The position numbers and the translations under genes are program-made. The notes under the pieces are model-generated. The model saw only the letters and a list, made by a program, of their open reading frames with translations, had not been told where the DNA came from and ran no database searches. From NCBI RefSeq assembly GCF_031458235.1, contig NZ_JAVDYB010000001.1:3307001-3371000 (forward strand): 64,000 bases of DNA, given 5' to 3'. Below, piece after piece: positions 3,307 through 46,583 of the stretch. Each line of letters opens with the position of its first letter. Positions within the stretch are counted from its first letter, which is position 1. Source of the DNA: Catenuloplanes atrovinosus. GTDB taxonomy: Bacteria; Actinomycetota; Actinomycetes; Mycobacteriales; Micromonosporaceae.

Positions 3307-3389
3307 TTTTCCCGCTTCCGGCACGGTCGCGGTCCGCATGCTCCCGCGGGCACCGCTCGGCCGTGGCCGGCCTCCCTGCCGGTCCCGCA
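3307..3389 (+). repeat. Interspersed intergenic repeat, copy A
   Basis: One of six copies in this window of an ~80-bp repeat. Its conserved blocks are, in order, CCCGCTTCCGGC, then GCATGCTCCCGCGGGCACCG, then a variable GGCCGTGGCC block, then GGCCTCCCTGCCGGTCCCGC. This copy has all blocks intact and serves as the reference. It lies between genes, upstream of ndh and beyond the 3' end of the GH97 gene. The blocks contain short self-complementary stretches (CCCGCGGG, GGCCGTGGCCGGCC). No transposase or protein product is associated. Confidence 0.85.
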
Positions 3390-3583
3390 CCCGGCCCCGA
3401 CCGGCCGTCCCGCCGGGGCGACGGGCGAGACCTCCGGCGCCGGGACATCCACGCCCGACCAACCCGACGGTCCCGCCGCGATCCCCCGCCCCGCCGGGCG
3501 CACCCGTCCCTCAGTGGACCGCCGCTTCGCGCTCTACCGGATTCGCACGCGAAGCCGGTTCCCCAGGTCCTCCATTGGCGAGT

Positions 3584-3630
3584 GATACGTGAAGCACGTC
3601 TCGAGGCACTCATGACGTGCTCTACGTATC
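3584..3630. repeat. Imperfect 16-bp inverted repeat (hairpin) 3' of the GH97 gene
   Basis: GATACGTGAAGCACGT (3584-3599) and ACGTGCTCTACGTATC (3615-3630) are inverse complements except for a two-base mismatch in the middle, with a 15-base spacer. It begins about 70 bp past the GH97 stop codon. Its composition is more AT-rich than the surroundings. It may be a transcription terminator for the GH97 gene or a protein-binding dyad. There is no T-tract. Confidence 0.6.
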
Positions 3631-3697
3631 TTTGGCCGCGCACACCGACCGTGACATCCGGCGATCTCGAGAGAAACGCCCGCGATGAGCACCCGCG

Positions 3698-6259
3698 TCA
3701 GGCGCAGGAGAGCCGGGCCGCGGCCCAGTCGGCGTGGTCGAAGTTCTTGCCGTCGCCGGCGTCGGTGACGCGGAGGGTGAGGCGGCGGACGCCGGTGACG
3801 TCGGCGGTGACGGGCTGGGCCGGGTCGCCGCTGCGCAGCACGCCGGTGCCGGCGAGTGAGCGGCCGTCGCCGAGCACCTCGAAGGTGGCGGACCCGGGGG
3901 TGGTGACCTCGTCGTCGATGCCGACGAGCGCGGCGAACGACGTGCAGGCGCCGCCGAGCCAGACCGTCACCTCGGCGGGCGCGTGCATGCCGAGGCCCTT
4001 CGCGTGGACGGTGCCGCGCAGCGTGAGCGGGTTGCCGTCGCCGGCGGACTGCTCGCCGTTGGAGCGGTCGCGTTCCACCGGGCCGTAGCCGTTGGACTCG
4101 GCGAGGAACGGCAGGTCGCTCACCCACGCGTCGCCGGTGGGCGCGGGTGGGGGCACGAAGACGCGGACGGCCTGCTCGACGTGTACGGTCCGGCCGCGCC
4201 AGCGGTAGGTCGCCACGATCGGCAGCTCCACCGTGCCGATCACGTCGTCGGGCACGGTCAGGCGCCACGATCCGGACAGTGACTCGCCGCCGCGCAGACG
4301 GGCCGCGGTCACCGGGTCGCCGCCGGACGCGGGCGCCAGCCGCACCTCGGTGATCGGCCCGCCGGCCGGCAGCGTGAACGTGGCGCGGACGTCGACGGAC
4401 GCGCCCGGCCGCGTCTCGGTGGACGGCGGCGTCACGGTCAGGACCGTGGCCGGCACCGGCTCGATCGGGCGGTCGCAGGTGGCCGACCCGGTGTACGGGC
4501 ACAGCGCCGTGACGAATCCGCCGTTCGCGGCCAGCGGCACGGTCAGCGTGTCGCCGCGGCGGACGATCCGGCTCTCCCGGACCAGGCCGTGGCCGCCGTC
4601 CCGCAGCGTCTCGGCCAGCCACCGCCCGCCGGGCAGGAAGCCGAGGTCGATCGCGGTGTCCCCGGCCGGCTCGGCGCTGATGCCGGCCGCCCACCAGCGG
4701 TCACCGGAGCGGCGCGCCAGGACCGCGGACCGTCCCGGCTCGCCGGACAGCAGCCGCGTCTCGTCCCACACCACCGGGATCTGGTTGAGCGTGCGCAGCG
4801 CCTCCGGATGCGACTCGTACGTCTCGAACCGGTCCGCCAGGTGCTGCCAGCCGGACTCGTAGACCACGGCGAGCGCCACCTCGTGCGCGTCGGTGGTGTC
4901 GCGGTCGGACACCACCCAGGTGACCGGCGTGTAGTCCATGCCGCCGGTGACGTTCCGGGTGAACGGGAAGATCGTGTTGGTGGCCGCGCGGGTGCGGGAC
5001 TGTTCGGCGCCGCGCACCGCCTCCTGGGTGAGCACGTGCGGCCAGGTGCGCTGCAGGCCGCGCGGGGTGGTGGCGCCGTGGAAGTTGACCATCAGCTTGA
5101 GCTCGGCCGTGGCGGGCAGGATCTCGTCGTACCAGCGGAACCGCGCCTGGCTGTCCGAGTCCATGAAGTCGATCTTCACGCCGGCCACGCCCCAGGACTT
5201 CAGCCGCGGCAGCACGGTGTCGCGCTCCTGCGGCGTGTCCAGCGCGGTCCAGTGCAGCCACAGCAGGATGTCGACGCCGCGGGCCCGCGCGTAGCGGACC
5301 AGTTCCGGCACCCAGGACGCGTTCCACCCCTCGTCGATCAGCACGTACGGCCAGCGGTTGCGCGCGGCGAAGTCGACGTACTGCCGCTGGCGCACCGGGT
5401 CGGCCGGGCTGCCCCGCTCGGACAGCCAGGACCACGCGACGAGCCCCGGCCGTACCCACGAGGTGTCCTTGATCTTCGAGGCCGGCGCCAGGTCGTCGAC
5501 GAGCGTGCTCTCCGTGACGGTGGCCAGGTCGCCCACGATGGTGACGCGCCACGGCGTGCTCAGCGGACCGTCCGCGGTGACCGTCGCGTCGGCGAGCTCG
5601 ACCGCATAGCCGCCGCCGCCCGCGTGGGTGAGCCGGCCGCCCGCGTACCGCCCGTCCACGTCGGACTCCGCGAGCATGGCGTAGGTGCCGCCGATCCGGA
5701 ACAGCGCGGGAAAACCGTAGTCGGCCACCGGCGCCGCACCGGCCGTGGTCCGGCTCCAGGGCTCCTCGTAGTTCGGCGTGTACGGCAGCAGCCAGGCGTC
5801 GGCGTCCGGCGGGATCACGTACGACGAGGTCTCGCCGATGACCGTGACCGGCCCGTCATCCGGCAGCACGTACCGGTAGGCCGCGCCCTCCGCGGAGACC
5901 CGCACCACCAGGTCCAGCCGCGCCCCGCCCGCACCGGTGAACGAGAACGTCGACTCGCGCAGCGTGGTGTCCCGCTCGAGCCGTTTGCCGGTGGTCATCG
6001 TGTACCGCTCGCGCAGCGTGCGGCTGCTGCGGGAGACGAAGGTGAGCCCGTCGCTCAGGTCCGCCTCCGCGGTGCGGATGCCGATCGGCGCGGCCGGCAG
6101 CACCGAGTCGACGCCGAACGCGAGCCGCCCCTGATCCAGCCCCACGCGCGCCGTCACCTCCCCGCCCGGCGCCGCCACCGTCCACTCCAAACCCACCCGA
6201 TCCACCGGCGCCCCCGGCACCATGGCAACGACGAGAGCGGCGGTCAGCAGCACGTGCAC
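3698..6259 (-). CDS. Secreted GH97 glycosidase (alpha-glucosidase/alpha-galactosidase type) with C-terminal NPCBM
   Basis: 853 residues with an N-terminal signal-like segment (HVLLTAALVVAMVPG). An N-terminal beta-sandwich (~25-265) is followed by the GH97 TIM barrel (~265-510). The barrel contains VKIDFMDSD (Asp364) and TQEAVRGAE (Glu413), at the positions where retaining GH97 enzymes have an Asp nucleophile and Glu acid/base. The invertase-type catalytic base pattern was not seen. An Ig-like segment follows (~605-705), then an NPCBM domain (~708-853; AKGLGMHAPAEV, GKNFDHADW). The GTG start at 6259 is supported by GGAGG 7 nt upstream; a longer frame is not needed. Exact sugar specificity cannot be read from sequence. 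Confidence 0.88.
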   Translation of the reverse strand: MHVLLTAALVVAMVPGAPVDRVGLEWTVAAPGGEVTARVGLDQGRLAFGVDSVLPAAPIGIRTAEADLSDGLTFVSRSSRTLRERYTMTTGKRLERDTTLRESTFSFTGAGGARLDLVVRVSAEGAAYRYVLPDDGPVTVIGETSSYVIPPDADAWLLPYTPNYEEPWSRTTAGAAPVADYGFPALFRIGGTYAMLAESDVDGRYAGGRLTHAGGGGYAVELADATVTADGPLSTPWRVTIVGDLATVTESTLVDDLAPASKIKDTSWVRPGLVAWSWLSERGSPADPVRQRQYVDFAARNRWPYVLIDEGWNASWVPELVRYARARGVDILLWLHWTALDTPQERDTVLPRLKSWGVAGVKIDFMDSDSQARFRWYDEILPATAELKLMVNFHGATTPRGLQRTWPHVLTQEAVRGAEQSRTRAATNTIFPFTRNVTGGMDYTPVTWVVSDRDTTDAHEVALAVVYESGWQHLADRFETYESHPEALRTLNQIPVVWDETRLLSGEPGRSAVLARRSGDRWWAAGISAEPAGDTAIDLGFLPGGRWLAETLRDGGHGLVRESRIVRRGDTLTVPLAANGGFVTALCPYTGSATCDRPIEPVPATVLTVTPPSTETRPGASVDVRATFTLPAGGPITEVRLAPASGGDPVTAARLRGGESLSGSWRLTVPDDVIGTVELPIVATYRWRGRTVHVEQAVRVFVPPPAPTGDAWVSDLPFLAESNGYGPVERDRSNGEQSAGDGNPLTLRGTVHAKGLGMHAPAEVTVWLGGACTSFAALVGIDDEVTTPGSATFEVLGDGRSLAGTGVLRSGDPAQPVTADVTGVRRLTLRVTDAGDGKNFDHADWAAARLSCA

Positions 6260-6275
6260 GAGGACCTCCAGCGAT

Positions 6276-6289
6276 GGAAATCGATTCCC
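6276..6289. promoter_or_regulatory. Possible LacI-type operator upstream of the GH97 gene
   Basis: A 14-bp dyad, GGAAATCGATTCCC, is centred at 6282/6283 with one mismatched pair. The CG centre and flanking A/T with G/C ends resemble LacI-family operators. It lies just upstream of the ribosome site of the GH97 gene. Assigned by pattern only. Confidence 0.35.
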
Positions 6290-6333
6290 TCTGGGACCCT
6301 ATGCGGCGCACGGCCGCCAGACAATGGGCGCCC

Positions 6334-6439
6334 GCGGAACCGGCGGGGAGGCCGGCCGCGGACCCGGCGGGGGCCGGCCACGGCCCGGCCGGTGCCCGCT
6401 CCGAGCACCCGGATCGCGACCACGCCGGAGGCGGGTGAA
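6334..6439 (-). repeat. Interspersed intergenic repeat, copy E (diverged, enlarged)
   Basis: Read on the minus strand, this copy has CCGCCTCCGGCGTGGTCGCG, a degenerate middle block ending GGGCACCGG, then GGCCGTGGCCGGC, and finally GGCCTCCCCGCCGGTTCCGC. An extra ~25 bp of GC-rich sequence lies between the last two blocks. It sits between the MFS stop codon and the GH97 start. Clearly related to copies A-C but more decayed. Confidence 0.65.
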
Positions 6440-6461
6440 GCGGAGCTGCCCAGATCGTCGG

Positions 6462-7622
6462 TCACCGCCCGGCCGCCGCGACCGGCACGCCGGACGACCG
6501 GACGTCGACCGCGCGCGCGGCGACCACGATGACGGCGGCCAGCACGACCGGGATGGCGAGCGCGACCGGCAGGCCGGTGAGGGCGGCGCCGCCGCCGATG
6601 AGGACCGGGCCGGCGAAGAAGCCGAGCCAGCCGATGCTGGCGGCGCGCGCGATGGCGCGGGCCGGGCGGTCGGGGTTGCGGGCGCCGGCGGCGGAGAAGA
6701 CCTGTGGCGCGATGGTGGACAGGCCGGCGCCGAGGCAGCCGAAGCCGATCACGCCGGCGATCGGGTGGTGGACGAGCAGCGCGGCGCCGAGGCCGCCCGC
6801 GGCCAGCAGGCCACCGGCGCGGACCACCGCGACCGGGCCGAACCGGGCGGTGAGCGGGTCGCCGGCGAGCCGGCCGGCGGTCATCGCGGCGAAGAACGCG
6901 GCGTAGGCGCCGGCCGCGAGCGCCGCGGAACCGCCGAGGCTGTCGCGGACGTAGACGGTGCTCCAGTCCGCGGCGGCGCCCTCGCCGATCAGCGCGCAGA
7001 AGGCCAGGCCGCCCAGCAGCAGTACGCCGCGCAGCGGGCCCGGGTTCTGTCGTACCTCTGTGGCAGGGTGTTCCCGGGTGGCCTCGAACGACTGCGCGAC
7101 CGCCCAGGCCGTGACCGCGGCCATGACCACCGCCACGGAGGCGAACGTGACGACCGGCCCGGCCCCGGCCGCGGCGAACGCGCCGCCCGCCGCCGCGCCC
7201 AGGAAGCCGCCGATGCTGTAGGCGGCGTGGAAGGAGGACATGATGGGTGAGCCCCAGGCACGCTCGATCTCCACGCCGCGCGCGTTCATGGCCACGTTCA
7301 GCGTGCCGTGCACCACGCCGAAGGCGAAGAGCGCCAGCGCGAGCGTGGCCAGGTTCGGCGCGAGCGCGACCGGGATCAGCAGGAAGCCGTCGGCCAGCGC
7401 GACCGGGGTGAGCACGCGGCGGGTGCCGAACCGGTCGACCAGCGTGCCGACCAGCTGCATGCCCGTGATCGCCCCCGCGGCGAGCGCGAGCAGTGCCAGG
7501 CTGAGCAGGCCGTCGGAGAGGCCGAGGTGCTCCTTCACGGCGGGGATGCGCGCGGTCCAGACGCCGATCAGCGTGCCGTAGAGCAGGAACAGCAGGGCGG
7601 TGGCGAGACGCGCTTTCTTCAT
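6462..7622 (-). CDS. MFS transporter (12 TM, YbjJ/fucose-permease-like)
   Basis: 386 residues with about twelve hydrophobic segments. The MFS signature after TM2 is visible as DRFGTRRVL, and a polar break separates two six-helix halves. The N-terminus MKKARLATALLFLLYGTLIGVWTARIP resembles sugar or drug permeases that begin directly in TM1. ATG 7622 was picked because it opens just before TM1; it has no strong ribosome site. It is divergent from the AlkZ-like gene with 30 bp between starts, so the two share a promoter region. Substrate unknown. Confidence 0.85.
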   Translation of the reverse strand: MKKARLATALLFLLYGTLIGVWTARIPAVKEHLGLSDGLLSLALLALAAGAITGMQLVGTLVDRFGTRRVLTPVALADGFLLIPVALAPNLATLALALFAFGVVHGTLNVAMNARGVEIERAWGSPIMSSFHAAYSIGGFLGAAAGGAFAAAGAGPVVTFASVAVVMAAVTAWAVAQSFEATREHPATEVRQNPGPLRGVLLLGGLAFCALIGEGAAADWSTVYVRDSLGGSAALAAGAYAAFFAAMTAGRLAGDPLTARFGPVAVVRAGGLLAAGGLGAALLVHHPIAGVIGFGCLGAGLSTIAPQVFSAAGARNPDRPARAIARAASIGWLGFFAGPVLIGGGAALTGLPVALAIPVVLAAVIVVAARAVDVRSSGVPVAAAGR

Positions 7623-16810: not shown

Positions 16811-18310
16811 TCAGGTGTTCAGCGGGCGCCGCGCGATCAGCAGCGCGTGCGTGACCGGCCAGTCCAGCGGCGTGCCGTCCGGCCGGTGCAGCGACGCGAC
16901 CGGGGCCAGGCGGTTCTCCACGATCCAGTCGTTGCGCGTGGTGTGCGAGGCCGCGTCCACCTCGAACCCGACGTCGGTCAGCAGGCCCTTCCAGTCCGCC
17001 ATCTCCAGGCCGCAGAACTGCTCCTGCGTCTCGGAGAGCCAGTTGTCCGTGTAGTCCTTCCGGGTGAGGAAGTCCATCGCGTCGCCGAGCGTCAGCTCCA
17101 CCACGTCGTCCGACACCGGCCGATAGCCGAACGGGAACCGGAAGTCCACCGCGAACTGGTCGAGCCGGGCCCGCGTCGACAGCCCGCCGACGTACGCCGC
17201 GACGTCCCCGGACAACTCCGCCACCGGCGACGCCGGATTCGCACCGTCCGACGTGGACAGCCGCAGGTGGACCAGCTGGTCCCGCCCGTCCGGCCCGCAC
17301 ACGTCGCTGTTGATCCACACGCCGCCCGGCACGGTGTGCTCGTAGATGGCGGCCACGAACCGCCGCAGCGACTCCATCCGTGCGCCGTACGACCAGATCT
17401 CGTGCGTCAGCGCGAACGTCATGGTGGTGTCGATCGAGCGTGGCGCGAACACCGCACCGCCCAGCACGTTGCGCCGGTAGAAGAACACGTTCGGGTTCCG
17501 GAACGCGCCCTGCGCCTTCTTGTGCACGCACTCCTCGTACAGGTGGCGCGCCACCTCCACGCCGATCAGATCGCTCTCCCGCAGCGCCGGCTCGGCGTCC
17601 GCCATCTCCAGCACCGCGCCCGCGCCGCACCCGATGTCCACGATCCGCCCCGGCCGCACGTGCTCGCGGACCAGCCGCCACTTGCGGTCCGCGCCCGCCG
17701 CGAACGCCTCCACGTACGTCCGGTAGTCGCGGGTGGCGGTCAGCCCGCCCTCGTCGCCCACCACCGGGTCGTTGACCACCGCGCGTACCGCCTCGGCCAG
17801 CCGGTACCGCCCGAACACGTCCACCGACGCCGGATGCGCCAGCTCCCGCCACCGCTCGTCGCCGGCCGCCAGCCGCATCAGCACGTCCCACGGCCGCTCC
17901 GGCGGCTCCGGCAGCGCCGGATCGTCCTCCACCGGCAGCACCGTGAACCCGAGCCCCGCGTACAGCGCCGCCACCGCCGGCGTCGAACAGGCGACCACCG
18001 CGTTCCCCGGCGTCAGCGCCAGCCCGGTGGCGACCTCGACGTTCTTGACCGTCACGGCCGCGAACCGGTCCGTCGGCGCGGTGTCGAAGACCGGCACCAC
18101 CAGCGACCGCAGCCCCTCGGCCGCGCTCAGCCGCTCGATCGCGGCCTCCCGCCGGTGATACGGAATCGGGTTACGCTTCGTGTTCTCATGGTTCGCCGAC
18201 GTCACCGCCCACACCACGGTCGCGTCCCCGGCGACCCGCGTCAGGAACTCCGCCTGGAAGCGCGTCAGCAGGTGGTGCCGGCCGGGAAAGAGCAGGTAGT
18301 CGAAGCCCAT
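16811..18310 (-). CDS. Fusion: degenerate NadM-like adenylyltransferase domain + class I SAM methyltransferase
   Basis: 499 residues. Residues 224-231 (VDIGCGAG) are the SAM-binding motif I of a class I methyltransferase occupying ~190-499. The first ~180 residues parallel archaeal-type NMN adenylyltransferase (NadM): a strand/loop LLFPGRHHL, then NPIPYHRREAAIERL matching the PFTAGER block, LRSLVVPVFD, and a C-terminal GDERWRELAHPASVDVF helix. The catalytic HxGH of NadM is replaced (LTRF), so nucleotidyl transfer looks lost. It may act as a ligand-binding or targeting domain. Upstream (18361-18442) is repeat copy B. Substrate not inferable. Confidence 0.75.
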   Translation of the reverse strand: MGFDYLLFPGRHHLLTRFQAEFLTRVAGDATVVWAVTSANHENTKRNPIPYHRREAAIERLSAAEGLRSLVVPVFDTAPTDRFAAVTVKNVEVATGLALTPGNAVVACSTPAVAALYAGLGFTVLPVEDDPALPEPPERPWDVLMRLAAGDERWRELAHPASVDVFGRYRLAEAVRAVVNDPVVGDEGGLTATRDYRTYVEAFAAGADRKWRLVREHVRPGRIVDIGCGAGAVLEMADAEPALRESDLIGVEVARHLYEECVHKKAQGAFRNPNVFFYRRNVLGGAVFAPRSIDTTMTFALTHEIWSYGARMESLRRFVAAIYEHTVPGGVWINSDVCGPDGRDQLVHLRLSTSDGANPASPVAELSGDVAAYVGGLSTRARLDQFAVDFRFPFGYRPVSDDVVELTLGDAMDFLTRKDYTDNWLSETQEQFCGLEMADWKGLLTDVGFEVDAASHTTRNDWIVENRLAPVASLHRPDGTPLDWPVTHALLIARRPLNT

Positions 18311-18360: not shown

Positions 18361-18442
18361 TCTTCCCACTCCCGGCGTGGTCACGCTCCGCATGCTCCCG
18401 CGGGCACCGGTCGGCCGCGGGCGGCCTCCCTGCCGGTCCCGC
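18361..18442 (+). repeat. Interspersed intergenic repeat, copy B
   Basis: Carries GCATGCTCCCGCGGGCACCG and GGCCTCCCTGCCGGTCCCGC without change, separated by GTCGGCCGCGGGC, and starts with CCCACTCCCGGCG in place of CCCGCTTCCGGC. It lies between the methyltransferase start and the end of the histidine-kinase gene. With copy A this is the best-preserved member. Confidence 0.85.
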
Positions 18443-28797: not shown

Positions 28798-28900
28798 GCA
28801 CCGGGCGCCGAGGGCGGCGGCACTAGCCGCTGGCCCCGGCCCGGGCACCAAGTACCAGCCCGGCGACGGGCCGGGCACCGGCATCGGCCACTGGCACCCG

Positions 28901-28993
28901 GCGCCGGGCACGGGCACCGCGTGCCGGGCACGGGCACCGCGCGCCGGGCACGGGCACCGCGCGCCGGGCACGGGCGCCGGGCACGGGCGCCGG
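28901..28993. repeat. Tandem repeat, 20-bp unit, about 4.7 copies
   Basis: Unit GCGCCGGGCACGGGCACCGC, at 28901-28920, 28921-28940 (one change), 28941-28960 and 28961-28980 (two changes near the end), then a 13-base partial unit. Looser versions of GGGCACCGG extend back to about 28840. Minisatellite-like; no spacer sequences. Confidence 0.85.
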
Positions 28994-29676: not shown

Positions 29677-29716
29677 GCGGGACCGGCAGGGAGGAGCGCC
29701 AGCGACGACCGGTGCC
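29677..29716 (-). repeat. Interspersed intergenic repeat, copy D, IS-separated left part
   Basis: Read on the minus strand, this part ends with CTCCCTGCCGGTCCCGC, the 3' block of the repeat. It is cut at 29716 by the IS element. Joined with 31267-31317 after removing the IS and one target duplication, it rebuilds a complete copy. Confidence 0.8.
29707..29716. repeat. 10-bp target-site duplication, left (IS element)
   Basis: GACCGGTGCC directly before the IS left end; the identical sequence follows the right end at 31267-31276. Confidence 0.92.
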
Positions 29717-29748
29717 CAATGCCACTTAGCTTATTTTGATCTTGGTGG
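29717..29748 (+). repeat. IS terminal inverted repeat, left
   Basis: 32 bp beginning CAATGCCACTTAGC; its exact inverse complement lies at 31235-31266. Confidence 0.95.
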
Positions 29749-29932
29749 TGGGTGGAAGCGGTACGTGGCGGGGCTGGGGTGGCGGGTGGAGGCGGGTTCG
29801 TGGCGTTGTTTGGGTCGGTACATGTTGCGGCGGCAGCGTTTGACGGCGCGGGGGCAGGTGCGGTGGCGGCGGGCGGGGTTGAGTGTGCGGGTGATCTGGG
29901 CCCAGATGCGGGGTAGTCGGGTGGTCCAGTCT

Positions 29933-31198
29933 TCAGGGGGAAATGGCCGCTGAGCCGGTGGCTGAGCGGCGCGCGAGGCGTAGTGCGCGGGTGAAGCTGA
30001 TCCGGTCGGGGTCGATCGCGGCAGCGTCGGCGGCGCGGGTGATCAGCACGGTCATGGCGTGCTGGATTAGTAGCCAGGCCCAGATTTCCTGGTGGACGAG
30101 GTCGGGCAGTTTCGAGCGCAGGATCCGGCCGGGCCCGCGGAGGTGGGTTTTGAGCTGGTCGTTGGCGGTTTCGTGTTCCCAGCGCAGGTGGTATGCCTCG
30201 GCGAGTTCGTCCGGGCCGGCCTGGGCGGGGTCGATGATGGTGGTGGCCAGGGTGATCAGTTCGCTGGTGCCGTTACCACTACGGTCGGGTACGTCGTATG
30301 CGACGACTCGGGCGAGGTGGGCGGCGGGCAGGCCACGGTCGTTGATCGCGTCGTCGCAGGTGTCCAGGGTCCGGTCGGCCGCGGCGGCCAGGATCCGGTC
30401 CCGGCGGCCACCACGGATCGTCTTGTCCATCAACACGGTCAGATAGGTGCCGTCGGCCAAAACCTCGATCACCGGCAGCCGGATCCCGGCCTGGATCCGC
30501 CAGAGCAGGTCCGCGCCGGTCGCCTGCGCCCGGTCCCACGCCGCGAACGAGTAAAACGACCGGTCCGCGGTCAGTAGTTCCCCGCGGCGCAGCCGTGCAT
30601 ACAACGGCATGGCCAGGGTCTGTTCCCCGACCGCATACGCGCCGACCTCCGCCGCCAAAAACGCGTGCGTCCCGCACTCAGTCAACGCCACGACCCGGGC
30701 CTTCGGGAACGCCGACGGGCCACCACCGGTCCGGGAATACCCGAACTCGGCCGCGTTCTCCGTCGTGTCCGGCACGTCCACGTCGAACCCGTCGATGGCA
30801 AGGACCCGCCAGTCCCGCAACCACGCACCTGACGTGACCGCGGACGCGACCGGCCGGGCGACCCGCTCGAACACCTCCGCCAGCACATCCCGGCCCAGCC
30901 GCTTACGGGCCTGACTGATCCCACCGGCCGTCGGCGGCGACCACCCCGCGTCCCAGCACCCGAACCGATCCAACGCCCCGGTCACCTTCACCGCGACCTC
31001 GGCATAATCATCATCCGGGAACAGCCACAAACCCATCGTCAGATACGCCGTCACATGCGGCGGCAACTTCCCATCCGACCGCCTCGCCTGCACCCCACAC
31101 TCCGCGACCGCGGCATCCACCACGTCCCGCGGCACCGCCGTGACCAGCACCCCGACCGACACCTGATCCGGCCGCACATCCACACCCGACACCACCAC
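29933..31198 (-). CDS. IS4-family transposase
   Basis: 421 residues. An N-terminal IS4 domain (~20-110) precedes the DDE catalytic core: Asp136 in LAIDGFDVDVPD, Asp212 in LLTADRSFYS, and Glu343 within the IS4 signature Y-(2)-R-(3)-E-(6)-K, seen as Tyr336, Arg339, Glu343, Lys350. No stop or frameshift interrupts it, so it is probably functional. The GTG start at 31198 lies 36 bp inside the inner edge of the right inverted repeat. About 180 bp at the left end of the IS are non-coding. Confidence 0.95.
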   Translation of the reverse strand: MVVSGVDVRPDQVSVGVLVTAVPRDVVDAAVAECGVQARRSDGKLPPHVTAYLTMGLWLFPDDDYAEVAVKVTGALDRFGCWDAGWSPPTAGGISQARKRLGRDVLAEVFERVARPVASAVTSGAWLRDWRVLAIDGFDVDVPDTTENAAEFGYSRTGGGPSAFPKARVVALTECGTHAFLAAEVGAYAVGEQTLAMPLYARLRRGELLTADRSFYSFAAWDRAQATGADLLWRIQAGIRLPVIEVLADGTYLTVLMDKTIRGGRRDRILAAAADRTLDTCDDAINDRGLPAAHLARVVAYDVPDRSGNGTSELITLATTIIDPAQAGPDELAEAYHLRWEHETANDQLKTHLRGPGRILRSKLPDLVHQEIWAWLLIQHAMTVLITRAADAAAIDPDRISFTRALRLARRSATGSAAISP

Positions 31199-31234
31199 AT
31201 CGAAGCAGACAAACCAGCCACACCACCCACCAGA

Positions 31235-31266
31235 CCACCAAGATCAAAATAAGCTAAGTGGCATTG
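31235..31266 (-). repeat. IS terminal inverted repeat, right
   Basis: Exact inverse complement of the left end (29717-29748). The transposase promoter should lie just inside it. Confidence 0.95.
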
Positions 31267-31317
31267 GACCGGTGCCCGCGGGAGCATGCGGACCCCGGCC
31301 ACGCCGGAAGCGGGAAA
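31267..31317 (-). repeat. Interspersed intergenic repeat, copy D, right part (and right target duplication)
   Basis: Read on the minus strand it has CCCGCTTCCGGCGTGGCCG, then GCATGCTCCCGCGGGCACCG, then breaks at the IS end. Bases 31267-31276 are the right-hand 10-bp target duplication. It ends 12 bp before the GH51 stop codon. Confidence 0.88.
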
Positions 31318-31328
31318 GCACAGAGGCC

Positions 31329-32834
31329 TTAAGAGAACGAAACCGCCGTCCACGACACCGGCGGCAGCGTGATCGTCACCGTCCCGTCCTCCACGGTGGC
31401 CGACGGGTTGGCCCGCGTGCCCACCCGCTCCGGGTTCGCCAGGGTGTTCGCCGCGTGCATGTCGTCGTCCCAGATGCCCTCCGCGCGCACCGCGGTCACT
31501 GCGAGGCCGCGCACGGAGATGGTCACCGTCGTCGGTTCGGTCAGGTGGCGGTTCTGCAGGAAGACCGCCAGTGAGCCGGCCTCGTCGAATGTCGCGGCGG
31601 CCGCGATGACCGGGACGTCGCCGTGGGCGGGGGTGGGTACGGTGTCCGCGTCCAGCTGCACCCGCAGGGCCGAGCCGCGTGCGAGGCGGGAGGTCAGGGA
31701 GAACGGGAAGAAGGTGGTCTGGCGCCAGGCGGGGCCGCCGGGTTCGGTCATGATGGGGCCGATGACGTTGACCAGCTGGGCGAGGCTGGCCGACGTGACC
31801 CGGTCGGCGTGGTTGAGCAGGGAGATGAGCAGGCCGCCGACCGTGACGGCGTCGGCGACGGAGTAGACGTCCTCCAGCAGGCGGGGGGCGATCGGCCAGT
31901 GGTCGGCCGGGAACGTGTCCTCGACGGCGTTCCAGCGGGAGGCGTACCAGACGTTCCACTCGTCGAAGGAGATGTCGATGCGCTTGTCGGCGCGTTTGAC
32001 GGCGCGCACGTGGTCGGCGGTGGCCACGACCGCGTCGATGAACGCGTCCATGTCGACGCCGGAGGCGAGGAAGCTGGCGTAGTCGCCGTCGCGGGGTTCG
32101 TAGTAGGCGTGGCAGGAGATGTAGTCGACCTCGTCGTAGGCGTGCTCCAGCACCACGCGCTCCCACGTGCCGAACGTGGGCATGCCGCGGGACGAGGAGC
32201 CGCAGACCACGAGTTCGAGGTCGCGGTCGAGCTGGCGCATCGCGTTCGCGGTCATCGCGGCGAGTTTGCCGTAGTCCTCGGCGTCGCGGCGGCCGAGCTG
32301 CCAGGGGCCGTCCATCTCGTTGCCGAGGCACCACATGCGTACGCCGAACGGCTCGGCCCGGCCGTTGGCGGCGCGCTGTGCGGCGCGTGCGGTGCCGGTG
32401 GGGACGTTCGCGTACTCGAGGAGCGCGAGCGCCTCGGGCACGCCGCGGGTGCCGAGGTTGACGGCCAGCATGAGTTCCGAGCCGACCAGGTCCAGCCAGG
32501 TCTGGAACTCGTGCAGCCCGACCTGGTTGGTCTCGGTGGAGTGCCAGGCGAGGTCGAGCCGGCGGGGGCGGTCCGCGGCCGGGCCGACGCCGTCCTCCCA
32601 CTGGTAGCCGGAGACGAAGTTGCCGCCGGGGTAGCGGATGGCGGAGACGCCCAGCTGCTTGACCAGCTCGACCACGTCGCGGCGGAACCCGTCGGGGCCC
32701 GCGGTGGGGTGGCCGGGCTCGTGGATTCCGTCGTAGATGTGCCGGCCGAGGTGCTCGACGAAGCCGCCGAACAGCCGCCGCCGCACGGCGCCGATGGTGA
32801 ACGCGGGGTCGAGGGTGAGGCGCGCGCGGGCCAT
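31329..32834 (-). CDS. GH51 alpha-L-arabinofuranosidase
   Basis: 501 residues, usual GH51 length, no signal peptide, so it is intracellular. Family motifs: LFGGFVEHLGRHIYDGI near the N-terminus and SAIRYPGGNFVSGYQWEDGVG. The acid/base Glu173 is in WCLGNEMDGPWQ and the nucleophile Glu292 in ISFDEWNVWY. It removes arabinofuranosyl side chains from arabinoxylan or arabinan oligosaccharides, complementing the GH10 xylanase and GH42 enzyme in this window. ATG 32834 has AAGGAG 9 nt upstream. It starts 23 bp after the DUF418 gene. Confidence 0.96.
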   Translation of the reverse strand: MARARLTLDPAFTIGAVRRRLFGGFVEHLGRHIYDGIHEPGHPTAGPDGFRRDVVELVKQLGVSAIRYPGGNFVSGYQWEDGVGPAADRPRRLDLAWHSTETNQVGLHEFQTWLDLVGSELMLAVNLGTRGVPEALALLEYANVPTGTARAAQRAANGRAEPFGVRMWCLGNEMDGPWQLGRRDAEDYGKLAAMTANAMRQLDRDLELVVCGSSSRGMPTFGTWERVVLEHAYDEVDYISCHAYYEPRDGDYASFLASGVDMDAFIDAVVATADHVRAVKRADKRIDISFDEWNVWYASRWNAVEDTFPADHWPIAPRLLEDVYSVADAVTVGGLLISLLNHADRVTSASLAQLVNVIGPIMTEPGGPAWRQTTFFPFSLTSRLARGSALRVQLDADTVPTPAHGDVPVIAAAATFDEAGSLAVFLQNRHLTEPTTVTISVRGLAVTAVRAEGIWDDDMHAANTLANPERVGTRANPSATVEDGTVTITLPPVSWTAVSFS

Positions 32835-35427: not shown

Positions 35428-36186
35428 ATGGAAACGGGTCTGTCCGGCAGGGTCGCGCTCGTCACCGGCGCGTCCGGCGCCATCGGCCGCGCCACCGCAC
35501 TGCAACTGGCCGCGGAGGGAGCCGCCGTCGCGGTGTCCTGGCGCACCGACCACGACGCGATCACGGACGTGGTCGACACGATCACGCGCGCGGGCGGACG
35601 CGCCCACCCGGTGCGGCTCGACCACGGCGACCCCGACGGCGCGCGCGGCGTGCTGGAGGAGGTCGCCGCGGCGCTCGGGCCGGTGACCGTGCTGGTCGCG
35701 AACGCCGTGCAGTGGCCGTCCTTCGACGCGGACGAGATCGGCGGCCTCCGCACGGCGCTGGCGGTCAACACGGTCGGCCCGGCCGCGCTGATCGACGCGG
35801 CGCTGCCGGCCATGCGCGCGGCCGCCTGGGGCCGCATCGTCGCCGTCTCGACCGACGTGGTGGAGCAGCCCATGGCCGGCCCGATCGCGTACGTGACGGC
35901 CAAGGGCGCGCTGGAGGCGGCCGCGCGCGTGCTCGCGGTCCGGGAGGCGCGCCACGGCATCCTCACCAACGTGGTGCGCCCCGGCTTCACGCTCACCGCA
36001 CGCGCGCTGTCCGCCCCGTTCCTCGGCCCGGAGGCGGTCCGGTCGGAGTCCGTCAAGACCCCGACCGGCCGCATCTGTGCGCCCGAGGACGTCGCCACCG
36101 CCATCACATACCTGGCCTCCGCCGCCAACGGCCACATCAACGGCCAGACCCTCTCCCTCGCCGGCGGGCGCGAACTCGTCCGCTGA
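35428..36186 (+). CDS. SDR-family oxidoreductase
   Basis: 252 residues, classical short-chain dehydrogenase. Cofactor motif TGASGAIG at residues 13-20, catalytic Ser141 (VAVSTD), Tyr155 and Lys159 (IAYVTAK). The C-terminal INGQTLSLAGG resembles FabG-type members. Likely an NADPH-dependent 3-ketoacyl or carbonyl reductase. Under control of the divergent MarR protein, as its promoter region carries the operator. Substrate not determined by sequence. Confidence 0.92.
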   Translation: METGLSGRVALVTGASGAIGRATALQLAAEGAAVAVSWRTDHDAITDVVDTITRAGGRAHPVRLDHGDPDGARGVLEEVAAALGPVTVLVANAVQWPSFDADEIGGLRTALAVNTVGPAALIDAALPAMRAAAWGRIVAVSTDVVEQPMAGPIAYVTAKGALEAAARVLAVREARHGILTNVVRPGFTLTARALSAPFLGPEAVRSESVKTPTGRICAPEDVATAITYLASAANGHINGQTLSLAGGRELVR

Positions 36187-36224: not shown

Positions 36225-36303
36225 CGGATCGGACAGGGAGGCCGGCCACGGCCGACCGGTGCCCGCGGGAGCGTGCGGAACCCGGCCCGCCGGAAGCGGG
36301 AAA
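36225..36303 (-). repeat. Interspersed intergenic repeat, copy C
   Basis: Read on the minus strand: TTTCCCGCTTCCGGCGGGCC, then GCACGCTCCCGCGGGCACCG (one change), GTCGGCCGTGGCC, then GGCCTCCCTGTCCGATCCG (3' block diverged). It sits between two convergent SDR genes and could also serve as part of their terminators. Confidence 0.85.
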
Positions 36304-36355: not shown

Positions 36356-37066
36356 TCAGCCGAACAGGGCGGCCTGGATGTCGGCGTAGAACAGGGCGGG
36401 GTCGCGGGAGAGGGAGGCCTTGACGTTGGCGGTCGGGGCGTCGGCGATCACCTCGAGCGCGCCCGCCTCCAGGCCGTCCAGGGCCATGGCGACGACCTCG
36501 TGCGGCGGGAGTTTGGGGATGTCGTAGGCGGCCATCATGTCGGTGTCCGCGATGGCCAGGGCCAGCGCGGTGACCTGGGTCTTCTGGTCGGCCAGCTCCA
36601 TCCGGACGCCGTTGGTGAGGGACCACTCCGCGGCCTTGGAGGCGGCGTAGCCGTTGCTGGCGGGCGCGAAGGTGTACCAGCTCAGCGCGGAGATGACGTT
36701 GAGGATGGCGCCGCCGGCCAGCCGGGGGGCGAACGCGCGGGTGACGGCGAGCGTGCCCCAGAAGTTGGTGTCGAACTCGCGGTGGATGTTCTCGGTGGAC
36801 GGGCCGAGCAGCGGCGCGTTCGTGGAGATGCCGGCGTTGTTGATCAGGATGTTCAGGTCGCCGACCTCGGCCGCGGCGGCCTCGATGGACGCCGGGTCGG
36901 TGATGTCCAGCCGGAGCGGTACGGCGCCCGGGACGTCGATGAGGTCGGGGCGGCGGGCGGTGGCGTACACGGTGGTGGCGCCGCGGGCCAGGAGAGCCTC
37001 GGCGAAGGCCTTGCCGAGACCGCGGTTGGCGCCGGTCACGAGTGCTGTTGAGCCGTTGATCTGCAT
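36356..37066 (-). CDS. SDR-family oxidoreductase
   Basis: 236 residues. TGANRGLG near residues 11-18 binds NAD(P); LINNAG is present; the catalytic Tyr-x-x-x-Lys is YAASKAA, with Ser in VISALSW. It resembles YciK/CsgA-like short SDRs found with MerR regulators. ATG 37066. A dyad-containing element at 37083 looks like a MerR-type promoter, but no MerR gene is adjacent. Confidence 0.92.
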   Translation of the reverse strand: MQINGSTALVTGANRGLGKAFAEALLARGATTVYATARRPDLIDVPGAVPLRLDITDPASIEAAAAEVGDLNILINNAGISTNAPLLGPSTENIHREFDTNFWGTLAVTRAFAPRLAGGAILNVISALSWYTFAPASNGYAASKAAEWSLTNGVRMELADQKTQVTALALAIADTDMMAAYDIPKLPPHEVVAMALDGLEAGALEVIADAPTANVKASLSRDPALFYADIQAALFG

Positions 37067-42463: not shown

Positions 42464-42838
42464 TCAGACCTCGAGCTCGGCCTCGATGCGCTTGAGCTGG
42501 TGGCGGGCCATGCCGAGGTTGGCGCGGTTCTTGCTGAGCGCCAGGTACATGAACAGCGCCTCGCCCTGACGGCGCGGCTGGAGCAGCCGGATCAGGTGGT
42601 ACTGGGTGTCCAGCGTGATGAGGATGTCCTCGATGCCGTCCGGCAGGCCGAGCATCTCCAGCGTGCGCAGCTTCGCGCGGACCACGTCCGTGTTGCCGGC
42701 CGCGGCGATCGTCACGTCCATGCCCGGGCCGCCACCCATCACGCCCAGCGTCAGACCGCTGGTGTAGTCGACGAGCGCGACAGCGATGGCACCGTCGATG
42801 GACATCGCGTCCTTGAGCGCGGCATCGATGTTTGCCAC
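42464..42838 (-). CDS. Roadblock/LC7-domain protein RB1
   Basis: 124 residues; GAIAVALVDYTSGLTLGVMGGG, ILITLDTQYHLIRLLQPRRQG and LSKNRANLGMARHQLKRIEAELE are a typical bacterial roadblock core. The GTG start at 42838 has GGAGGAACA upstream and excludes the ~79-residue upstream open stretch. First gene of the cluster RB1-RB2-RB3-RB4, behind a ~350-bp leader. Confidence 0.85.
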   Translation of the reverse strand: MANIDAALKDAMSIDGAIAVALVDYTSGLTLGVMGGGPGMDVTIAAAGNTDVVRAKLRTLEMLGLPDGIEDILITLDTQYHLIRLLQPRRQGEALFMYLALSKNRANLGMARHQLKRIEAELEV

Positions 42839-43190
42839 TGTTCCTCCGGTTGTTGCGGCGATCCGACTCGCCGTGCGGCGAATACGGAAGGTGGTGGGAT
42901 CATGAGCGACCGGTGAAGCTTTGCATGGATCCAGTCTGAATCGAAAACGCGATCCGAGTTCTGCCTGACCAGGCAAGGCGAAGATCGCCCGAACGACTCG
43001 GAGCGGAACGGAACGGATGGTTGCGCTACGCACTCCGAGTTGGTAGCGACTACGAGAAGTAGCCTCCTTTGACACTCTCAGTCAGCCCCAGCTCAACGTT
43101 GATTTAACACCACGAACGGGCCGACTGAGCGGTTGATCAGACAGATCGGAAGAACCGGAATCGGTCATCCGACAGCGAACCCGACAATGG
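42839..43190. other. Leader / intergenic region upstream of the roadblock cluster
   Basis: About 350 bp with no gene, between the RB1 start and the amidohydrolase stop. It is less GC-rich than its surroundings. TGCCTG and CAGGCA (42962-42975) form a small dyad. The minus-strand section around 43110-43125 (GTTAAATCAACG) is a candidate promoter core. No riboswitch fold that I can name was seen. Confidence 0.5.
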
Positions 43191-44024
43191 TCACGGAATG
43201 GGCGGAAGCCCGTATATCTCGCGCGCATTCCCGGACAGCACCGCGTCCCGATCCACCGGCGGGATCAGCGCGCGGACCATGCCGTACCACTGCCGATAGT
43301 CGGAGGCGAGGGTCAACACCGGCCAGTCGCTGCCGAACAGGCAGCGCCCCGGCCCGAACAGCTCCAGCGCGGTCTCCAGGTACGGGCGCACCTGATCGGG
43401 CGTCCAGGTGTCGTACGCCGCCTCGGTGACCAGCCCGGAGAGCTTGCAGCGCACGTGCGGCAGCCCGGCCAGCCCGGCCAGCGCGTCCCGCCACGCCCGG
43501 CGGCCCTCGCCGGTGGCGACCGGCGGCTTGCCCAGGTGGTCCAGCACGATCGTGGTGCCGGGGCACGCGCGCGCCAGCGTGAGCAGCTCGCCGAGCTGGT
43601 GGTGCCGGACGCACGCGTCGAACGTCAGGCCGGCCTCGCCGAGCGCGCGCACGCCGTACCGGAAATGACCCGTCGCGGCGAACCCGGGCCCCTCGTCCTG
43701 GATGTTGCGGCGCACGCCGACCACGAACGGGTCGGTGGCGTACTCGTCGATCAGCCCGTCCGCACCGGGCCCGATCTCCAGCGGCGCGTAGGCGACCATG
43801 CCCAGGATGCGCGGGTACGCCTCCGCGGCGGCGCGCACCCACTCCACCTCGGCCCGCGCCTGCCCGGGCGCGCAGTCGGCCTGCACCATCACCAGCCCGG
43901 GCAGCTCACCCAGTTCGGCCGCGAGGTCGGCCGGCCGGTACGCGCGGTCCAGCGCGGTCCCCGCCAGCCAGGGATAGCGCAGCGTCTCCGGATTCCAGAA
44001 GTGCACATGCGCATCGACGTACAT
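43191..44024 (-). CDS. Amidohydrolase-2 family hydrolase (L-fuconolactonase-like)
   Basis: 277 residues, metal-dependent TIM barrel. The N-terminal YVDAHVHFWNPETLRYPWL matches sugar-lactone hydrolases of the L-fuconolactonase group (HxH metal site, HFW). IVLDHLGKP supplies further ligands and CLFGSDWPV the catalytic Asp. It opens the lactone formed from a sugar dehydrogenase product. Downstream of the TetR gene (3 bp apart), so probably one transcript. The FAH hydrolase and SDR at 47-49 kb could follow it in the same pathway. Confidence 0.85.
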   Translation of the reverse strand: MYVDAHVHFWNPETLRYPWLAGTALDRAYRPADLAAELGELPGLVMVQADCAPGQARAEVEWVRAAAEAYPRILGMVAYAPLEIGPGADGLIDEYATDPFVVGVRRNIQDEGPGFAATGHFRYGVRALGEAGLTFDACVRHHQLGELLTLARACPGTTIVLDHLGKPPVATGEGRRAWRDALAGLAGLPHVRCKLSGLVTEAAYDTWTPDQVRPYLETALELFGPGRCLFGSDWPVLTLASDYRQWYGMVRALIPPVDRDAVLSGNAREIYGLPPIP

Positions 44025-44026
44025 GC

Positions 44027-44587
44027 CTACCGATTGTGCGGTCGCACTCCGTCCAGCGCCATGGCCAGTACCCGGTCACGCTGCGCGTCGTCGGTGTACG
44101 CGCCGGCCGTGATGCCGCTGACCATGCGCAGCACGTCGTCGAAGCTGGTGTCCGGGCGCACCGCGCCGGCCTCCTGCGCGCGGGCGAACAGCGGGCGGCC
44201 CGCCGCGTACATGTCCGCGCGGCAGCTCAGGAACATGGCCGACTCCGTGTTCAGCGCCTCCTTGATCGCGCGCTTGGTCGCGGCGAACCCGACGAACCGG
44301 CGCAGCCACGTCTCCAGCGCGTCCCACGGCGGCAGCTCGCCGACCTCGTCCGCCACGTCGCAGAGCTGCTCGATCTCGCCGACGTACACGGCCTCGAACA
44401 GGTCCTGGCGGGCCGGGAAGTTGCGATACAGCGTGCCGATGCCGACGCCGGCCCGGCGCGCGATCTCCTCCAGCGACGCCTCGGTCCCCTTCTCCGCGAA
44501 GACCTCGCGCGCCGCGGCCAGCAGCGCGTCGTAGTTGCGCCGGGCGTCGGCCCGCTGCGGTCGCCGCAGGACGGCAGTCCGCTCCAT
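44027..44587 (-). CDS. TetR-family transcriptional regulator
   Basis: 186 residues. HTH: ASLEEIARRAGVGIGTLYRNFPARQDLFEAVY, a textbook TetR DNA-binding domain, followed by an all-helical ligand domain. ATG 44587 with GGGAGAG 8 nt upstream. Divergent from an MFS efflux gene; two identical dyads in the gap are its likely operators. Probably a repressor released by a toxic ligand, and it may also set the level of the amidohydrolase gene immediately downstream. Confidence 0.94.
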   Translation of the reverse strand: MERTAVLRRPQRADARRNYDALLAAAREVFAEKGTEASLEEIARRAGVGIGTLYRNFPARQDLFEAVYVGEIEQLCDVADEVGELPPWDALETWLRRFVGFAATKRAIKEALNTESAMFLSCRADMYAAGRPLFARAQEAGAVRPDTSFDDVLRMVSGITAGAYTDDAQRDRVLAMALDGVRPHNR

Positions 44588-44611
44588 CACGTCACTCTCC
44601 CACGGTTGAAC

Positions 44612-44627
44612 CGGAGGCAACCCTCCG
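44612..44627. promoter_or_regulatory. TetR operator O1
   Basis: CGGAGG-CAAC-CCTCCG; core GGAGG-N4-CCTCC, perfect. The identical core recurs at O2 with centres 22 bp apart. Confidence 0.75.
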
Positions 44628-44633
44628 TTATGG

Positions 44634-44649
44634 TGGAGGGGTGCCTCCA
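44634..44649. promoter_or_regulatory. TetR operator O2
   Basis: TGGAGG-GGTG-CCTCCA; core GGAGG-N4-CCTCC, perfect. Two helical turns from O1, so two dimers could sit on one DNA face. Confidence 0.75.
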
Positions 44650-44694
44650 CTTTAACAGGCACCACTCCTCTTCCCCTTGAAGGGCCGCCGCCCC

Positions 44695-46119
44695 ATGGCA
44701 TCCACCAGCACCACCCGCGTGTTCGCGATCCTCGCGTCCGCCGCGGGCACCGTCTCACTCATGCAGTCGCTGATCACGCCGGTCCTGCCGACCATCCAGC
44801 GCGACCTGCACACCGACGCCGGCACCGCCACCTGGGTCTTCACCTCCTGGCTGCTCGCCGCCGCGGTCGCCACCCCGATGCTCGGCCGGGTCGGCGACAT
44901 GATCGGCAAGCGCCGCGTCCTGGTCGCCGCCCTGATCGTGCTCGCGGTCGGCTGCCTGGTCGCGGCGCTCGCCCCCACCATCACCGTGCTCATCGCCGGC
45001 CGGGTGCTCCAGGGCCTCGGCGGCGCGGTCTTCCCGCTGGCGTTCGGCATCATCCGAGACGAGTTCCCGCCCGCGCGCGTCGCGTCCGCGGTCGGCGGCA
45101 TGTCCGCGGTCATCGCGGCCGGCGGCGGCGTCGGCATCGTGCTGGCCGGCCCGGTCGTCGGCGCGCTCGACTGGCGCTGGCTGTTCTGGCTGCCACTGGT
45201 CGCCGCGCTCACGGTCGCCGCGTTCGCGCTCCGCGTCGTGCCGGAATCCCCCGTCCGCACCCCCGGCAGGATCAACTGGATCGCCGCCGCGCTGATGTCC
45301 TCGTGGCTGATCGCGCTGCTGCTGCCGCTCTCCAAGGCGAACGCCTGGGGCTGGGACTCGCCGCGGGTCATCGGGCTGTTCATCGCCGCCGCCGTGCTGC
45401 TCGCCACCTGGATCGTCTTCGAGTACCGGTCCGTGAACCCGCTGATCGACATGCGGATGATGCGCCGGCCGGCCGTCTGGACCACCAATCTGGTCGCGCT
45501 GCTGTTCGGCGCCGGCATGTTCGGCTGCTACGCGTTCCTGCCGCAGCTCATCCAGACCCCGGCCGCGGCCGGTTACGGCTTCGGCGCCAGCCTCACCACC
45601 ACCGGCCTGCTCATGCTGCCGATGCTGGTCGCGATGGCCGCGGCCGGCTCGCTCAGCGGCCCGCTCAGCACGCGCCTGTCCGGCAAGGCCCAGCTCGTCA
45701 TCGGCGCCGCCCTGGTCGCGCTGGCCTGCGCCACCATCGCGGTCGCGCACGACGCCCCGTGGCAGGTCGCCACCGCGGGCGCGGTCTTCGGCCTCGGCCT
45801 CGGCGTCTCGTTCGCCGCGATGATCAACCTGATCGTGCACGCGGTCCCGGCGTCGCAGACCGGCACCGCCAGCGGCATGAACACCAACATCCGCACGATC
45901 GGCGCGTCCATCGGCACCGCCGTCGTCTCGTCCATCGTCACCGGCCACCTGCAGCCGAACGGCCTGCCCTACGAGTCCGGCTACACCAACGCGTTCTGGC
46001 TGATGGCGGCGCTCGCCGCGACCGCCATCGCGCTGTCCCTGCTGGTCCCGGTGGTCCGCCCGCACCGCGAGCCCCGGCTCACCACCGACACCCCGGCACC
46101 GGCGCTCGCCGACGCGTGA
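44695..46119 (+). CDS. MFS drug-type transporter (DHA2-like)
   Basis: 474 residues with ~14 hydrophobic segments. Motif A is visible as GRVGDMIGKRRVLV and the family start as LQSLITPVLPTIQRDL (sequence MQSLITPVLPTIQRDL). Related to EmrB/QacA-type proton antiporters. ATG 44695 preferred; a TTG at 44677 is in frame. Controlled by the divergent TetR via the twin operators. The substrate may be a drug or sugar; drug efflux is the usual role for this arrangement. Confidence 0.88.
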   Translation: MASTSTTRVFAILASAAGTVSLMQSLITPVLPTIQRDLHTDAGTATWVFTSWLLAAAVATPMLGRVGDMIGKRRVLVAALIVLAVGCLVAALAPTITVLIAGRVLQGLGGAVFPLAFGIIRDEFPPARVASAVGGMSAVIAAGGGVGIVLAGPVVGALDWRWLFWLPLVAALTVAAFALRVVPESPVRTPGRINWIAAALMSSWLIALLLPLSKANAWGWDSPRVIGLFIAAAVLLATWIVFEYRSVNPLIDMRMMRRPAVWTTNLVALLFGAGMFGCYAFLPQLIQTPAAAGYGFGASLTTTGLLMLPMLVAMAAAGSLSGPLSTRLSGKAQLVIGAALVALACATIAVAHDAPWQVATAGAVFGLGLGVSFAAMINLIVHAVPASQTGTASGMNTNIRTIGASIGTAVVSSIVTGHLQPNGLPYESGYTNAFWLMAALAATAIALSLLVPVVRPHREPRLTTDTPAPALADA

Positions 46120-46583
46120 CCACCCAATCCGTCCGGCGCGGGTCTCCCGGCTCGCGCCGGACGCTTCAGCCGATTCTCCCGCTCCCGGCGCGGCCCGTCC
46201 CGCATGCTCCCGCGGGCAAACCTCGCGGCGGCTCCGCCGCCGCATCGGAGCCGGTTCCCCGGTGGTCGCCGAGCCCCGCGATCACCGTCGCCGGTCACCA
46301 CACCGTCGCGCCGCGTCGTCCAGCCCGGCGATCTTCGGGCTGGTCACACAGATTTGCCGGCCCGAGGACGACCTCCGCAGCGTGACTCCCCGTAATTGCC
46401 GAGAACACCCCGCGCACACGGTTAGAGCCCATACCTGAGAGTAGTTTCCAAGCAAGATCACGATCGGGTGACGAGTTCGTGAAGACCAGGACGTTAGCAG
46501 GCCGCCACAACCGGCTCTGAGCTGCGGGTTCACCCATCGTGGTCCGCTGTGGACGATTGCGCGCCGCGCTTACGCTGCGCAGC
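46120..46583. other. Intergenic region, contains repeat copy F
   Basis: About 460 bp without a gene. It holds a partial interspersed repeat (46173-46218). The rest, 46330-46560, is less GC-rich and includes the promoter region of the downstream lipoprotein gene. No terminator dyad is obvious after the MFS gene. Confidence 0.5.
46173..46218 (+). repeat. Interspersed intergenic repeat, copy F (5' half only)
   Basis: TCCCGCTCCCGGCGCGGCCC followed by CGCATGCTCCCGCGGGCA; the match then ends, so the 3' blocks are missing. Same orientation as copies A and B. Located 54 bp after the MFS stop codon. Confidence 0.75.

Follow-up and report, generated by a model that had tools for sequence, protein, structure and literature searches.

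A REP-like family of dispersed, strand-tied elements at gene ends in Catenuloplanes

Why does a short repeat recur between the genes of a bacterial chromosome, and what ties it to their ends? This question is raised by a stretch of 64,000 nucleotides of Catenuloplanes atrovinosus (the window, i.e., positions 3,307,001 to 3,371,000 of genome G000, one contig of 8,906,892 b), in which a sequence-only reading had reported six copies of an intergenic repeat. Comparison of the genomes presents this repeat as a dispersed, strand-tied and structured gene-end element, whose core is near-invariant and whose gene ends are filled or empty depending on the species. The repeat probably signals the ends of genes and has spread across the genome.

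Copies and their position behind genes

Sequence related to the repeat lies at or near all six places initially proposed (Table 1). Copy C (minus strand) is 86-87% complementary to copies A and B across 55-63 nt, copy D is a single copy split by an insertion sequence (IS) of 1.55 kb, and copy E is diverged yet significant (nhmmer 26.3 bits, E 3.8e-6). In another subtype, type II, which includes copy F, GCGGGCAAACC comes with a different hairpin, which is why the match of F to A is limited to the 5' half.

In the whole genome, the 20-nt core GCATGCTCCCGCGGGCACCG has 157 matches with at most two mismatches (77 forward and 80 reverse), whereas the reversed pattern, searched as a control at the same tolerance, has none in either orientation. 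The family thus exceeds chance and extends beyond the window, and the initial proposal of elements resembling repetitive extragenic palindromes (REPs) or bacterial interspersed mosaic elements (BIMEs), present in hundreds of copies, proves right in kind and in copy number. That the repeat would be a compositional artefact of GC-rich intergenic DNA is already refuted by this control and has next to no probability; furthermore, when G068 and the two rich genera are set aside (see below), the remaining 342 genomes of the bacterial family have no more than two exact 14-mer core matches each. Copies are denser toward the origin side of the chromosome (Kolmogorov-Smirnov, KS, p 6.3e-5). A stretch of 1.15 Mb (4.00-5.15 Mb) is devoid of any exact 20-nt core. 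Exclusion from Ter, of the kind associated with Noc or SlmA, was rejected as a reading of this gap, which is not at the terminus given the parS-like sites near 7.65 Mb.

The G000 copies studied are the 108 distinct ones, out of the 157 matches, whose core (at most two mismatches) falls within the loci retrieved. Only one of the 108 is genic, so that the claim that copies always lie between genes nearly holds. The claim that they adjoin a gene 3' end is also correct but understated, as the element is usually co-oriented with the gene and close behind its stop. With genes called by a codon-score caller trained on G000, not by a published one, the upstream gene is on the strand of the element for 91 of 107 copies, against a baseline of 49% over intergenic positions (binomial p 1.5e-14), and the median distance from its stop to the element is 13 nt. 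A stop codon occurs within the 60 nt before the element in 78/107 copies, compared with a baseline of 9.2%. In the window, this strand rule holds for C, D, E and F. What is new here is that the copies are directional; the sequence-only reading contained neither the strand rule nor the covariation, the two target-specific ISs and the two subtypes described below.

Convergent flanks are enriched: the 99 copies with both neighbours known comprise 64 between convergent genes, 21 + 13 between tandem genes and 1 between divergent genes, while the background gaps of at least 90 nt, which include gaps holding elements, comprise 97, 107 + 111 and 167, respectively. The strand bias does not seem to be acquired with divergence, since it is alike in the three thirds of copies ranked by score (top 29/35, middle 29/35, bottom 33/37). 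The rule is also seen in C. japonicus (41/54 copies, median distance 44 nt) and in a second genus taken together with G068, where it holds at 25 loci out of the 29 that have an upstream gene call (30 loci read).

Anatomy, covariation and distribution

The element is about 80-120 nt long. The consensus of the 108 copies reads (T-rich)CCCGCTTCCGGC-GTGGTCGCGGT-CCGCATGCTCCCGCGGGCACCGGTC-(hairpin)-TCCCTG-CCGGTCCCGC, with a 5' edge that is sharp at CCC and a blurred 3' edge. On the sense strand, a T-rich edge is followed by a CCCGC block, a hairpin P1, the core, a hairpin P2 often carrying an apical CGCTGGCGCTC, and a tail near TGCCGGTCCCGCGG. P1 is clear in the second genus and in G068, and weak in Catenuloplanes. 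This strand is C-rich (C 44.1%, G 32.5%) and contains 26.9 pyrimidine-C (YC) steps per 100 nt, compared with 19.3 in 113 other convergent gene ends. An upstream palindrome, AAGATCAAGATCTTGATC, was considered as a part of every element and discarded as too rare (2 exact occurrences in 1.264 Mb, both beside a core). Most elements are single copies; some tandem or inverted pairs were seen (L095, L067, L020 and L097). In L095 (10576-10780), L067 (9587-9720) and L020, the 5' half of the repeat forms head-to-tail tandems about 73-125 nt apart, and in L106 and L002 short tandem repeats (GCGAGGCTCTCGTCTTTCCC; GGTCGCGGCGCCTCG) lie directly downstream of the element.

Two subtypes are recognised. In type I, the core is near-invariant, G[C/T]ATGCTCCCGCGGGCACCG, and the inner hairpin of 183 copies from several species takes four main states, GTCGCTGGCGCTCC (68), GGCCGTGGCCGGCC (25), GGCCGCGGGCGGCC (17) and GTCGCCGGCGCTCC (16), both sides being swapped at two pairs. 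Type II (48 copies collected) has AAACC or CAACC in place of ACCGG and mostly a longer, variable stem, often with an apical CGCTGGCGCTCC. In 47 of these 48 copies, one being left out for want of a 3' anchor, the native pairing run has a mean of 6.47, compared with 5.08 +/- 0.19 when partners are shuffled; as type II copies are related, independent events are fewer than copies. In the same way, a cross-genus alignment of P1 and P2 (28 of 30 sequences, without the truncated loci L202 and L206; structure drawn by hand) has 84.0% of its cells paired, compared with 81.9 +/- 0.4 when shuffled and 25.6-47.0% when slid, and eight pairs changed on both sides, compared with 3.8 +/- 1.2 (0/500 shuffles). 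Folding covariation, which had been suggested as a check, is thus found in the flanking hairpins, the core being fixed.

No match to Rfam 15 reaches gathering scores in the window. At E<=5 in eight loci, only one match is close to an element, to c4-a1b1 and below threshold (L280, 1585-1646, at the tail end of the element; E 0.44, 20.2 bits against a gathering score of 46.7). Elsewhere, L186 (2633-2714) matches the Actinobacteria small RNA Ms_AS-4 above its gathering score (60.6 bits).

The search of the genome and of related genomes reveals a family that is genome-wide and present in all five Catenuloplanes genomes (108-254 core matches each, with at most two mismatches). Among the 354 genomes of the bacterial family, only those of Catenuloplanes and of the second genus (6/6 genomes, 5-108 matches) have the core in abundance at this tolerance; G068 has four matches, as has G349 (loci unread, no exact 14-mer). 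The exact 14-mer occurs 130-310 times in Catenuloplanes, 2-90 times in the second genus, four times in G068 and at most twice elsewhere. The 21 loci read from the 14-mer search comprise three new ones, two known ones (G068, G323) and 16 that look like chance matches. The three, L268, L278 and L280, lie in three more genomes of three genera and hold elements of the same architecture, as judged by eye. Related elements are thereby found in four genera beyond Catenuloplanes and the second genus, with four or one per genome. The second genus keeps the core, with C or T at the second base, and has diverged flanks that form P1 (GGTCCGC...GCGGACC) and P2 (GGTCGG...CCGACC, often with an apical CTCGCTGGCGCTCGCC).

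The exact 18-nt core is absent from 318 sampled genomes of other families of the order. Copy A has no BLAST match in phages and no match in plasmids, and the five viral contigs holding a 17-nt core share one common, unrelated context. Our literature search in open-licence PMC brought up neither a paper on repeats of this kind in Catenuloplanes or Micromonosporaceae nor a comparable REP-like family in Actinobacteria.

Turnover of gene ends and possible explanations

The syntenic blocks of the window were compared between G000 and four sister species (G001-G004). Orthologs of the gene before D lack the element in all four relatives, as do those of the gene before E, and two orthologs of the gene before F lack it. 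Only at site B do all five species hold element sequence: G000, G001 and G003 have the core, which is reduced in G002, and G004 has no more than a 5' remnant. This is so although B lies 5' of gene 16811-18310, contrary to the strand rule; an unannotated plus-strand transcript is possible there.

By a strict test, both species have an element in 13 of 46 ortholog pairs, and a single species has one in the other 33. A rereading of 17 of these 33 (identity at least 91%) found five with a diverged or more distant element and two with a 5' fragment. By a looser test, seven of 54 C. japonicus copies are at a gene end shared with the window species (one of them 327 nt away), and reading the loci revealed an eighth (L137/L106); as loci were chosen around copies, counts of shared sites are biased upwards. 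Shared gene ends often hold different subtypes, and one pair (L073/L155) shares a rare variant. Downstream flanks at the 13 shared ends are as alike as random ones (0.62 vs 0.61 identity), and no empty site can be aligned to base level. Since flanks and core (see below) are there as in random pairs, descent with constraint and renewed insertion cannot be told apart; vertical constraint at these ends was thus rejected as indistinguishable from independent copies.

We tentatively favour, with somewhat less than even confidence, the reading of the family as dispersed, structured 3' untranslated region (3'-UTR) modules marking mRNA 3' ends. Transcription would pass the stop codon, and the C-rich RNA with its hairpins would define the mRNA 3' end; termination would occur downstream, probably of Rho type, and be followed by trimming back to the hairpin, while a sequence-specific factor would read the core. 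We infer this function from the C-rich sense strand and from the REP hairpins of Escherichia coli, which stabilise mRNA 3' ends without terminating transcription (PMC13289151). A further version, in which a factor reads a Micromonosporaceae-specific 3'-end signal through its core, located between two hairpins, and ends or matures transcripts in one direction only, while the signal spreads by a RAYT-independent route (RAYT, REP-associated tyrosine transposase) that senses transcript or translation ends, seems rather unlikely. The initial proposal of transcription terminators is unsupported in the intrinsic sense, because the T-rich tract precedes the element instead of following it and the consensus tail is C/G-rich.

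Several observations weigh against the 3'-UTR reading. The strand rule is broken by 16/107 copies. At the 13 shared ends, the 45-nt core is no more alike (0.91) than between any two copies (0.89). Drawing P1/P2 by hand favours that structure, and a control slid by +3 equals its covariation score (0.091 vs 0.089), while RNAalifold gives a different and weak structure for the cross-genus alignment (10 pairs, -11.28 kcal/mol). A stable single-sequence fold was rejected, as shuffled sequences fold as well as the four consensus strings made by hand (z 0.70, 0.30, 0.21 and -0.72). In type I, variation in the outer 3' arm is not matched by its 5' partner, which is fixed. The asymmetry between G-U and A-C pairs does not indicate which strand is read (type II, 14 GU and 7 AC; cross-genus, 3 GU and 7 AC). 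Furthermore, an intrinsic terminator precedes the element in 6/20 copies with a spacer of at least 35 nt, compared with 7/128 element-free convergent ends (p 0.0027), so that transcripts may end there before reaching the element; among the near copies as a whole, the proportion is 6/85.

Almost as good a fit as the 3'-end module is a selfish element that targets gene ends. This would be a non-autonomous mobile element without benefit for its host, whose enzyme recognises gene or transcript ends (the T-rich tract after a terminator or a stop), and we regard it as a serious possibility, though doubtful on the whole. The sharp 5' edge at T-rich sequence agrees with it, as do the terminators ahead of long-spacer copies, whose T tract runs up to the element in those read, the 33 one-sided ortholog pairs, the equal strand bias of consensus-like and diverged copies, and the different subtypes at shared gene ends. 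However, the T-rich motif alone does not predict position and was rejected as the sole cause of the rule: without the element, [GC]ATHT[TAG] is on the same strand in 50% and near a stop in 10% of cases, the figures of intergenic positions in general. No terminal inverted repeats or target duplication were recognised in the alignments of the 108 copies, and no autonomous relative was found. A Y1/RAYT mobiliser (PF01797, E<=0.001), Y1_Tnp being the only domain searched for, was not detected in any of the 15 genomes searched, 12 of them element-bearing (five of the genus and ten others, seven of these with elements); controls matched in 5/14, and the genomes of L268, L278 and L280 were left out. 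The initial suggestion of a non-autonomous mobile element may hold, given the many gene ends that are occupied in one species but vacant in another, but no mobiliser was found. The core kept between genera suggests, moreover, a constraint beyond recent copying.

A Rho-utilisation module, i.e., a C-rich directional terminator on which Rho would load as ribosomes leave at the stop, would explain the same-strand position close behind stops and the convergent enrichment. The excess of C over G and the abundance of YC steps on the sense strand are those of a Rho-utilisation (rut) site, and intrinsic terminators look rare at element-free convergent ends by our simple test (the 7/128 mentioned above). 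Rho sites, nevertheless, are not expected to need a near-invariant 20-nt core or covarying hairpins, which makes this explanation improbable. Even less probable is a site bound as double-stranded DNA by a protein of the nucleoid (as also proposed initially), by gyrase or by a segregation protein: its palindromic CCCGCGGG core, the origin-side enrichment and the mention of E. coli REPs as gyrase targets in PMC3733652 speak for it, but orientation is tied to the upstream gene, the hairpins covary, and orientation relative to the replication fork is balanced (52/96).

Insertion sequences and known repeats

Table 1. Copies of the repeat and associated insertion sequence in the window
Feature	Coordinates	Strand	Context
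Copy A, type I	3309..3388	+	Strand-rule exception; 220 nt from upstream gene 1727-3088, which is on the opposite strand
Copy E, diverged	6334..6439 (about)	-	Starts ~26 nt behind stop of gene 6462-7622(-), MFS_1
Copy B, type I	18363..18442	+	89% identical to A across 80 nt; strand-rule exception, upstream gene on opposite strand
Copy D, 3' part	29677..29716	-	Cut off from 5' part by the IS
IS within copy D	29717..31266	.	34-bp perfect inverted repeats; 10-bp target duplication GGCACCGGTC
Transposase of copy-D IS	29933..31198	-	Nterm_IS4 + DDE_Tnp_1
Copy D, 5' part	31267..31317	-	12 nt behind stop of gene 31329-32834(-), Alpha-L-AF_C domain
Copy C, type I	36225..36303	-	52 nt behind stop of gene 36356-37039(-); convergent with 35428-36186(+)
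Copy F, type II	46174..46259 (about)	+	GCGGGCAAACCTCG + hairpin + CGGAGCCGGTTCC; ~55 nt behind stop of gene 44695-46119(+), MFS_1

A short intergenic tandem array with 20-nt spacing (GGGCACGGGCACCGCG...) is also seen in the window at 28867-28992.

The core is the target of two ISs. The IS4-family member that splits copy D has two copies with identical transposases in G000 and six, at 92%, in G001; all eight (the window copy, L059 and L127-L132), which have both ends, sit at one fixed point of the repeat and duplicate the 10-bp target or its local variant. L043 holds diverged ends of a related IS, located within repeats or close to them. The other IS belongs to the IS110 family (DEDD_Tnp_IS110 and Transposase_20) and has five G000 copies with identical transposases (L108:17288-18787, L234, L237-L240), 5/5 of which interrupt the core at the CT of GCATGCTCCCGCGG (GCATG-CT-CCCGCGG). 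Pairing of an IS110 bridge RNA with the repeat was considered and dropped, as a 7-nt complementarity also occurs in 31% of shuffles and is not significant. Among 11 second-genus loci with relatives of the IS4-family transposase (44-56% identity; ends unmapped), ten have no core, and in L217 a core lies past the gene, at a distance of about 0.6 kb. Nor is there a core in L235 and L236, which hold the two IS110 relatives at 63-64%. Target specificity is thus seen only for close copies.

Target-specific ISs of the IS110 and IS4 families are known in REPs (PMC1525189). For example, the close copies of any one of IS621, ISPa11 and ISPpu9 (IS110) or ISRm22 (IS4) share one repeat position, as here (PMC1525189, PMC11208160), and IS621, which targets REPs, uses a CT core identical to the insertion CT of the present IS110 member (PMC11208160). 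The host group and the repeat are new, and here both IS families occur on one repeat. This convergence of two unrelated IS families on one short core may keep ISs out of genes.

As described in PMC3733652, REPs and BIMEs share with the present family a high copy number, an intergenic location that mostly follows coding regions and falls between genes in convergent or unidirectional arrangement, the ability to form hairpins, and the insertion of target-specific ISs; REPs of the CGTC type also apparently lack a dedicated transposase. Nevertheless, the family differs from described REPs. The Catenuloplanes element is longer (80-120 nt instead of 20-40 nt) and found in Actinobacteria, has no GTAG or CGTC tag (its consensus begins with TTTTCCCGCTTCCGGC) and, unlike GTAG REPs, comes with no detected Y1/RAYT. 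Furthermore, its position is tied to the strand and stop of the upstream gene, and its core, between two hairpins, is kept across genera. The REP hairpins that stabilise 3' ends in E. coli (PMC13289151) resemble it as GC-rich hairpins without a U tract behind genes, whereas the Catenuloplanes core is conserved in sequence and tied in orientation.

Miniature inverted-repeat transposable elements (MITEs) derived from ISs are likewise short, non-coding, dispersed and patchy between species. Unlike them, the present element has no recognised terminal inverted repeats or target duplication, and no parent IS was found.

The family matters for how repeats without RAYT spread and for why repeats sit behind genes. 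Thanks to its rule of strand and distance, its species-specific filled sites and its core kept between genera, both questions are directly testable.

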